A DNA stretch of 64,000 bases from Ectocarpus siliculosus (lineage: Eukaryota > Sar > Phaeophyceae > Ectocarpales > Ectocarpaceae): assembly GCA_000310025.1 (NCBI GenBank), contig FN649754.1:927648-991647 (forward strand), read 5' to 3'. The translations under genes and the position numbers were made by a program. Shown here one piece after another: positions 26,171 to 39,928 of the stretch; within the stretch, counting starts at the first letter, position 1; each line of letters begins with the position of its first letter. A model generated the notes under the pieces. The model was not told the DNA's origin, did not search any database, and saw nothing but the letters and a program-made list of their open reading frames with translations.

Positions 26171-28826
26171 TCAGTAGCAGAAACGAACGCTATCCGCTGC
26201 AATCGTTTGCCCGGTGACGAAGGTCGCCCTGTCCGACATGAGGTGGGCCACCTGCTCGGGTAGTTGCGGAGGGCGCATCGCGTAGAAATAGGAGAAGATG
26301 CCACGTCACTCAAGGGATTATCGTCAAAGCAATGAATACGGCAAGCAAGCGTACCGCAAGAGGTGGTGTCATCGAAATTGTGGCATCACTGTCTGCGGAG
26401 GGCTCACCACTTGAAATATGTACACGTAAATAGCAGTCACGCCACCACTACCGGCAGTGTCAAGCAATCAAGTAGAGATATTCATCTCAACAAGGGGGGA
26501 CACTTGAACTTGAGGGCGGTTACATTGCGGCACAGGGAAGGCCATGGGGCAATAGGTTTTCGGCCCCTAAGGTGCTGTAGGCGTGTGGAGCTGCTCCCAT
26601 AATTCACCCGTGTGGGAATCATCGTATGCGTTGTGTGAGATGCCTATTCCCTGGGTCGCTTTCCGAGCTCTACGTCATCAGTAAGGGAGAAACTGGAACA
26701 GTATCTGTCAACGAGCTCCCAACGATGGGTATTGAACATGGAGACTACCTGCTTGCGTAGGGAATACAGTATCTGCGGCGCGCTATTGTTCATCCCCAAG
26801 TAGTGGAATCTTCGTCGCAGTATGGAGACGAGATACCGCAGGGGAAAGTGTAAGGCGCTTTGGGCACATCGATGCTCCTGCCGTGGAGAAAAGAGGCTGC
26901 TCAAAAACTTGTTTTGACCTGTCGGAATCGTCCACCAGCCATGTTGTGTTTGGGAATGATTTCACAGCGAGCCATCTTGTTGGCCGATAGAGTCAAGTGG
27001 AAATGTCCCAAAACCGTGAGTGGATGAGGTACACTGCCCGGAGGTACTCAATGATGCGGAAAGTGCATATTGTTGATACTCTCGGCCGGCTTGACATCCG
27101 TCGAAACTCCACTACCCAAACGTGAGTGTCGACCTTTACACGGCTGACTTTAAACCATGCAAAGATAGTCCGACTTCCACTACCGAAAACCTCCGAGGAA
27201 TACGTACCTACCCAGCAAAGTCATGCTGCAATAAGGTACTCTTGTTTTCTCAGCAGGACGGACTCTCCGCACACATGCGAGTGTCCTTTCACCTGCATGG
27301 CCACGTCCTCCGCCGACGGAGTCCGCATTGTGGCCAGCGAGAAGGTCCCGTGCCCCCCGCGGATGCGCCCGTCGTCCTCTTGTCCCAGGGCGTGGGTGAC
27401 GCAGTTCACGCGGACCCCGTCGGGACCGGCGGCGGCCGCAGCTGACGAAGTCAGCGACGAGATGGCCACGACGTTGCCGGCGCCGTCGGTGAGCCCGCGA
27501 TCCCCGGCATTGGCCACGAAGACCACCGAGCCACCGACTCCCGTCATGGCCGCGGCCGCTTGCTTCGCGCACAGCATTGGCGTCTGCATCTCCGCGACCA
27601 ACATGTCCTAGAGAAAAAATGTGACGATGGTCGCGGGTGGTTAAAGGAGAAACAGTCCAATCGCGGGGCTCCCAGATGGAATTGTATGGAGGGAGAGCGG
27701 AGATGGCACTCAGAGCGGTGGTGCATCGATTCAGAACGTTTCTGTTGTTGTTCAACACGTATGGTGTCTCCATCGCCACCATCCCTGTTCGTTCTCCTCC
27801 GGTTACACGCTTCGAAGCATGTCGAGCAAACGGATCATCATCATCGGTGCTACGGTCGTGCAAGGATGTCTTGACTTATCTCCAGACCAAATATGGTACA
27901 CCTTGTATTTCAACCATGGTTTCTGTCGTCTTGCCACTATACAAAATTTGCACCTTATAGCTCTTGAGGTCGAGGTCGTGCAGGCGTCCGTTGGTCTTGG
28001 AGTCGCATGTCGGAGGAGGCGGCGGAATGTTCACGAGACCGTCGATGGCTCCGAGGGTCTTGACGGTTTCAGCGAGAGCCTTCTTGACGCTGGTCTCGTC
28101 CGTGAGGTCGGCATCGATGTAGATGGCCATGCTCTCGGAGGCGTCTTCTCCGTCGAGACCCTTAACCTGCGCCGGTGCGTCGATGTCAAGACGAGGGGAG
28201 GTTCGGCGTCGACAATACCAAAAAAAGGTTGTTGTCGAAGCCCGAACAAACTGCGACATAGGTAATTGGATTCTTGCTGTGACGCCCGCCCTGGTAAAGC
28301 TGTTTTTTATTTCCCCGCCTATCTATCACGCGCCAGTTTTCAAGGTCGTTTCAATGTGTGTATTCTTACCCCGGAATGGATAACGCCTCGCCGGCCACGG
28401 AGGTAAGGAAAAACACACACCTCAGCCGACAGGAGCTACCTCAACTCGTTTACACCGTGGCATTTACCGGTTCAGAGTTATTTCGTTCTACAACCCCGCT
28501 ACACCAACATTTTCCCACCGTGCCCTTCCTTTGGTTCATCGTTATATATATTTGTTCTACGACCCCGCTAGACCACCTTTATTCAACCTTGCGTTGGCCG
28601 GGTCATGGATATTTCTATCCCACAACCCCCCTACACGACGACTGGTTCACACCTTGCCCTTGGCCGAAGCGGAGTCGGCGTCGACCACGGCCACCTTGGC
28701 CCCTTCCTTGACGAGCCGAGAGGCGATGTCCGGGCCGACGCCCTTCGCGCCGCCGCACACGACGACCACCCTCTTCGCCAGCGCTTGGCCCTGCTTGGCG
28801 AGCTGCTTCGCCTCTGCGAGCTCGGC
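26171..28826 (-). other. SDR (Rossmann) domain exons of the myosin-SDR gene
   Basis: Four exons (28826-28653, 28166-27954, 27607-27293, 26251-26171) encode 260 aa, a normal full SDR length. Seen: a dinucleotide-binding turn CGGAKGVG after the strand VVVV, an acidic residue after strand 2 (VAVVDAD), the [10 protein letters not shown] strand-4 segment, GAIDGLVNI where NNAG is expected (here NIPPPPP), [11 protein letters not shown] where the catalytic Ser would lie, GVRVNCV after the active-site helix, and the C-terminal [16 protein letters not shown]. The third exon contains no tyrosine at all, so the Tyr-x-x-x-Lys motif is absent. No initiator Met precedes the first exon in frame near its acceptor, arguing against a separate gene. 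I infer an NAD(P)-binding but catalytically dead domain. Confidence 0.85.

Positions 28827-39928: not shown

Follow-up and report, generated by a model that had tools for sequence, protein, structure and literature searches.

A predicted myosin gene that ends in a short-chain dehydrogenase/reductase fold without its active site, and a paralogue of the same design

Introduction

The tail of a myosin decides its cargo. In the 64,000-nucleotide stretch of DNA analysed here (C29:927648-991647, hereafter the window, from a 189-Mb genome in 492 contigs), a first-pass annotation had read a myosin motor fused in frame to a short-chain dehydrogenase/reductase (SDR) domain. The locus raises two questions: whether motor and SDR belong to one gene or to two neighbouring genes, and, if they form one protein, what an SDR could be doing at the end of a motor.

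Results

Structure of the gene

Re-derivation of the exon boundaries from the DNA gave a gene of 18 exons on the minus strand (39928-26171), with an open frame from ATG to TGA and with GT-AG ends and matching phase at all 17 introns (Table 1). The introns measure 155-1,209 bp (median 486 bp, n = 17, as called in the 1,181-residue model). The predicted protein has 1,181 residues if the short form of exon 12 (31169-31128) is used, as in our working model, and about 1,239 (summed) with the longer form of 72 codons, which is the better fit to the paralogue described below. Two boundaries had to be chosen from several options, the 3' end of exon 9 and the 5' end of exon 12; each sits within the motor, distant from the fusion. 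Third-position GC ranges from 0.74 to 0.91 across the four SDR exons and from 0.71 to 0.97 across the fourteen myosin exons.

Table 1. Exons of the myosin-SDR gene and the intron at its junction, in window positions
Feature	Position	Strand	Content
Exon 1	39536..39928	-	ATG at 39928, N-terminal part of myosin head; aligned with paralogue
Exon 2	38135..38326	-	P-loop GESGAGKT
Exon 3	37140..37337	-	Switch I (NDNSSRFGK)
Exon 4	36424..36762	-	Myosin head
Exon 5	35844..35977	-	Myosin head
Exon 6	34673..34879	-	Myosin head
Exon 7	34199..34328	-	Switch II (DIFGFE)
Exon 8	33856..34043	-	Myosin head
Exon 9	32889..33127	-	Myosin head; chosen 3' end backed by paralogue alignment
Exon 10	32261..32369	-	Myosin head
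Exon 11	31625..31886	-	Myosin head
Exon 12	31128..31343	-	Converter region; long form with Gln-rich insert, provisional choice guided by paralogue
Exon 13	30400..30529	-	End of converter and first IQ motif
Exon 14	29313..29512	-	Neck and coil, ends in phase 0
Intron 14	28827..29312	-	486 bp, myosin/SDR junction; lies inside one exon of paralogue
Exon 15	28653..28826	-	Coil and nucleotide loop CGGAKGVG
Exon 16	27954..28166	-	SDR
Exon 17	27293..27607	-	SDR; part in which Ser, Tyr and Lys are lost
Exon 18	26171..26251	-	SDR C-terminus, stop TGA 26173-26171

Several repeats lie within or beside the motor exons. A 130-bp unit present 3.4 times at 35457-35897 (81% matches) repeats the 3' end of exon 5 and its donor into intron 5, and we read its copies as cassettes that offer spare or alternative donors next to a motor loop; a similar duplication at 31476-31657 (67-bp unit, 2.7 copies) repeats the 3' end of exon 11 and its donor into intron 11. 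Intron 10 contains a run of 60 ACA/TGT trinucleotides (32014-32193), and a shorter run of the same kind at 31257-31296, within the long form of exon 12, would encode the Gln-rich insert. Upstream on the same strand is the end of a helicase-like gene (42140-42892; AAA_12, E 1.6e-14 over the 109 residues scanned).

Domains of the predicted protein

A single model carries Myosin_head (3.1e-208), adh_short_C2 (3.8e-25), adh_short (2.7e-20) and KR (7.4e-5) by Pfam, in a layout of myosin head, IQ neck, short coil and C-terminal SDR domain. The complete head of the first-pass annotation is borne out; as to its IQ motifs, Pfam finds one when the neck is scanned alone (9e-5) but lists none for the full protein at E 0.001. 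The P-loop, switch I and switch II of the head appear intact by eye, judged against the usual myosin motifs. Solved myosins closest to the head include 7kch, 7dhw and myosin Va, among the best 60 of 145 distinct sequences at E <=1e-100. The SDR matches 340 distinct PDB sequences at E <=0.001, and its best solved relative, among the best 60 of these, is PtmO8 (5f1p, 3.2e-18). By its sequence, the domain is a member of the classical SDR family by descent.

The junction

The first-pass annotation placed the junction between two exons that end and open in phase 0, about 490 bp apart, with no in-frame initiator Met before the SDR. All of this was recovered from the DNA: exon 14 ends in phase 0 with ...MQGEINELR, exon 15 opens in the same phase, the 486 bp between them equal the median intron of the gene, and neither exon 15 nor the 13 open codons ahead of it contain an in-frame Met. 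The first in-frame Met on the SDR side lies downstream of the nucleotide-binding loop. Left unspliced, intron 14 reaches a stop at its fourth codon (GTG AGT TGT TGA, 29303-29301; ...ELRVSC and stop). Its donor and its acceptor are both weak for this gene, each ranking 13th of 17 by a leave-one-out score. The gap holds 13 short ATG-to-GT frames that could be spliced in phase to exon 15. Their donors all score below 3 (best 0.5), and all introns of the gene but one (16 of 17) have frames of this type.

A paralogue that bridges the junction

Searching the genome with the head and neck of the window protein (49 matches scored of 119 candidates) located a second myosin on contig C17, from C17:3283361 on, which is 58-79% identical over the matched exons. 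It is the closest myosin paralogue found in the genome and it, too, ends in an SDR. With the window protein as a guide to its splice sites, we modelled the C17 gene as 12 exons encoding 1,263 residues; ten introns are GT-AG and one, after exon 3, apparently has a GC donor (AAG/GCGAGT; C17:3286437). Pfam assigns to the protein Myosin_head (4.5e-216), adh_short_C2 (4.7e-10), adh_short (1.3e-8) and IQ (1e-6; 4.2e-9 with the neck scanned alone), and PtmO8 (5f1p, 2.8e-7) is again the best solved relative of the SDR. Identity between the two proteins is 63% in the head (496/786), 36/88 in neck and coil, 15/32 in the coil across the junction and 33% in the SDR (78/234).

The last exon of the C17 gene (C17:3293695-3294681, 987 bp) starts LRVQMQDEIDSVKAELKKAKSTVKALQGLNGRKVAVTGALRGCGPAIV..., encodes coil and SDR together and runs to the stop. 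Against the C17 stretch, tblastn with the window protein returned one piece in this exon, residues 908-1175 (E 4.7e-17, 30.6% identity), which spans the window junction at residues 921/922. When exons 14 and 15 were joined and compared with it, with the low-complexity filter and composition correction off, 62 residues aligned ungapped across 29313/28826 with 46.8% identity (E 2e-15). Exon 15 contributes 49 residues of this alignment (E 7e-11). The share of exon 14 is 13 residues, short enough that the piece alone has a BLAST E of 0.004-0.03; its score is 35, the next best of 1,251 places in the paralogue scores 13, and none of 20,000 shuffles reached 35.

The intron before the last exon of the C17 gene (after ...RLAE) falls within window exon 14, and window intron 14 falls within the last exon of C17. 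Where one gene has its tail intron, the other thus reads through in a single exon, which makes two separate neighbouring genes very unlikely. An in-frame ATG does lie just ahead of the acceptor chosen for the last C17 exon (MPRVQ/LRVQ), so the C17 gene taken alone would be compatible with a separate start; such a start is disfavoured because LRVQMQDEIDSVK in that exon is homologous to the end of the myosin exon 14 of the window. The in-frame fusion proposed for the window is therefore backed by a paralogous myosin-SDR gene with the same coil and SDR in one exon, and as far as sequence can tell, the genome has at least two paralogous genes of this design.

Distribution

When the SDR of the window was searched against its own genome, it found its own four exons and then only matches of E 0.0016 or worse, and we rejected a free-standing close relative in this genome as the source of the SDR exons. 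The last exon of C17 found itself, window exon 15 (E 0.001) and then nothing better than E 2, and the window neck matched only the window gene. The tail-side DNA of 12 other myosin-like places (12 stretches of 7-10 kb, six adjoining the last head match and six beginning 10 kb beyond it) revealed no SDR, the best values being E 1.7 and 2.5; in the same scan four window frames and the C17 frame gave 2.5e-5 to 1.1e-42, both of these controls being part of the profile. Genome-wide exon scans with adh_short_C2 and adh_short returned 18 and 19 places; since neither fused SDR was among them, an absence of hits at other loci carries little weight. Two scans of viral contigs, with 17 and 575 pattern matches, detected no relative. 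The prokaryote genome collection gave 257 pattern matches and 96 relatives, of which 80 were kept and served solely for the active-site count; identities are 23-44% among those listed.

Loss of the active site

For this count, both SDRs were aligned with the prokaryote relatives; of the 80 kept, 78 entered the alignment, L096 and L099 being dropped as below 200 residues. Ser, Tyr and Lys are each present in 66 of the 78; at the corresponding positions the window SDR has a gap, G and V, and C17 has A, L and A. In a phmmer alignment, the window SDR shows A-N where the Ser is expected and, as we read it, Glu in place of the catalytic Asn. The nucleotide loop has fared better: the three glycines of TGxxxGxG are kept in both proteins (CGGAKGVG in the window, with C for T, and TGALRGCG in C17). 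The Asn pair of the NNAG motif is half changed in each, to N-I in the window and to C-N in C17. By eye, both SDRs have an Asp after the second strand, a residue that marks NAD preference.

The first-pass annotation described a full and normal SDR of 260 residues. The exons do run to the stop at 26173-26171, but with the catalytic residues lost, neither 'full' nor 'normal' is supported. The tail is an SDR by descent and very probably not an SDR redox enzyme, and we think it likely that it performs no catalysis at all. The sensing or binding of NAD(P) that had been proposed for it may still hold, as the kept glycine-rich loop and the Asp suggest.

Discussion

We are confident that one gene encodes both the myosin head and the SDR tail. 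The alternative is a myosin that stops shortly after the donor of exon 14 and a separate SDR gene whose start lies within the 486-bp gap or ahead of it; the two might form a conserved pair. The early stop, the low rank of both junction splice sites, the gap frames that could join exon 15 in phase and the ATG ahead of the paralogue's last exon would all fit such an arrangement. However, the poor donors of these frames and the presence of similar frames in nearly every intron of the gene count against it, and, crucially, a gene pair leaves unexplained why the coil of exon 14 is found ungapped and in the right place inside the SDR exon of C17. We consider two genes very improbable, and on the basis of the paralogue's bridging exon we discard the idea that an SDR gene of its own starts in the gap. 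For another stramenopile fusion, the part of the report that we consulted states that an operon-like gene structure is not excludable without protein data (PMC5795050); the bridging exon of the paralogue is our answer to that caveat here.

Within a single gene, the tail could still be an active enzyme carried by the motor, its catalytic residues displaced or its reaction a non-redox one. The kept nucleotide loop and fold signature are consistent with this, as is the second-best solved match of the window SDR, an SDR-fold cyclase (7S-cis-cis-nepetalactol cyclase, 6f9q). Nevertheless, Ser, Tyr and Lys are absent from both paralogues with different replacements, and the catalytic Asn also reads as Glu in the window, so an active tail appears improbable. 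If the tail were instead a functionless domain in decay that is tolerated after the coil, this would account for an SDR that is far less conserved between the paralogues than the head. Against this reading, both tails are open to the end and match SDR profiles above the Pfam cut-off, and the SDR exons of the window keep their high third-position GC; we regard decay as quite improbable.

The reading we favour, and think reasonably likely, is a single gene, one of two paralogues, for a motor head, an IQ neck, a short coil and a C-terminus of classical SDR fold that serves as a non-catalytic pairing or binding tail. SDR folds usually form dimers or tetramers, and for this reason we suggest that the tail is a pairing module. 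It would perform no redox chemistry; the coil and SDR would hold two heads together and present a surface for a partner or cargo. That the main role of the tail lies in pairing or cargo binding we put at even chances. NAD(H) occupancy may in addition tune pairing or cargo binding, a possibility that we hold only tentatively.

In the known fusions of class XVII and class III myosins with enzymes, the enzymes are, as far as is known, active. These fusions, the fungal chitin synthase myosins of class XVII and the class III myosins with an N-terminal kinase, resemble the window gene in joining a head and an enzyme fold in one chain but, in the parts of the surveys consulted, involve other enzyme families, whereas the enzyme fold of the window looks dead (PMC3942036, PMC5583752). 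The stramenopile and haptophyte classes XXI, XXX and XXXI share with it the broad lineage, IQ necks and varied C-terminal tail domains; the tails named for them in the text examined are WW, PX, Tub, PH, ankyrin and Aida_C2, with no SDR among them (PMC3942036). Classical SDRs such as PtmO8 (5f1p) and FabG-like reductases have in common with the window tail the fold signature, the glycine-rich nucleotide loop and a C-terminal VTGQ stretch, but the tail has lost the active-site Ser, Tyr and Lys and is joined to a motor and coil. In possessing an enzyme fold without catalytic residues, it is like the pseudoenzymes, for which the portions consulted of two papers mention no myosin tail of this kind (PMC10211241, PMC5106787).

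Our literature searches, at the level of titles and the openings of abstracts, returned no paper on a myosin with an SDR tail, and the words dehydrogenase, reductase, SDR, NAD and Rossmann have no occurrence in the main text of the myosin surveys PMC5583752 and PMC3942036. The latter counts thirteen heterokont-specific tail domains, not all of which are named in the text examined (PMC3942036), and an SDR could be among them. It is quite possible that databases or supplements already contain the two genes without comment. The consulted text of the other survey also mentions orphan myosins found only in Ectocarpus siliculosus and Saccharina japonica (PMC5583752).

The genome has a further feature that we note in passing: EsV_1_7_cys repeats give at least 150 matches (150 of 880 candidates scored), many in tandem clusters, and no match in 14 control genomes, which are prokaryotes as far as they are named. 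The EsV_1_7_cys family is greatly expanded in brown algae, so that the genome is likely that of a brown alga.

The presence of an SDR tail in two paralogous genes of one genome makes an annotation slip hard to uphold. With the active site missing and the nucleotide loop kept in both copies, the pair is an example, open to experiment, of an enzyme fold co-opted for the tail of a motor; if the lineage is brown-algal, it is one that evolved multicellularity independently. More speculatively, the genes may represent a new myosin type, probably brown-algal, in which a dead SDR tail that binds nucleotide lets NAD(H) or redox state set motor pairing, cargo attachment or activity. If this were true, metabolism would be tied directly to actin transport through the tail.
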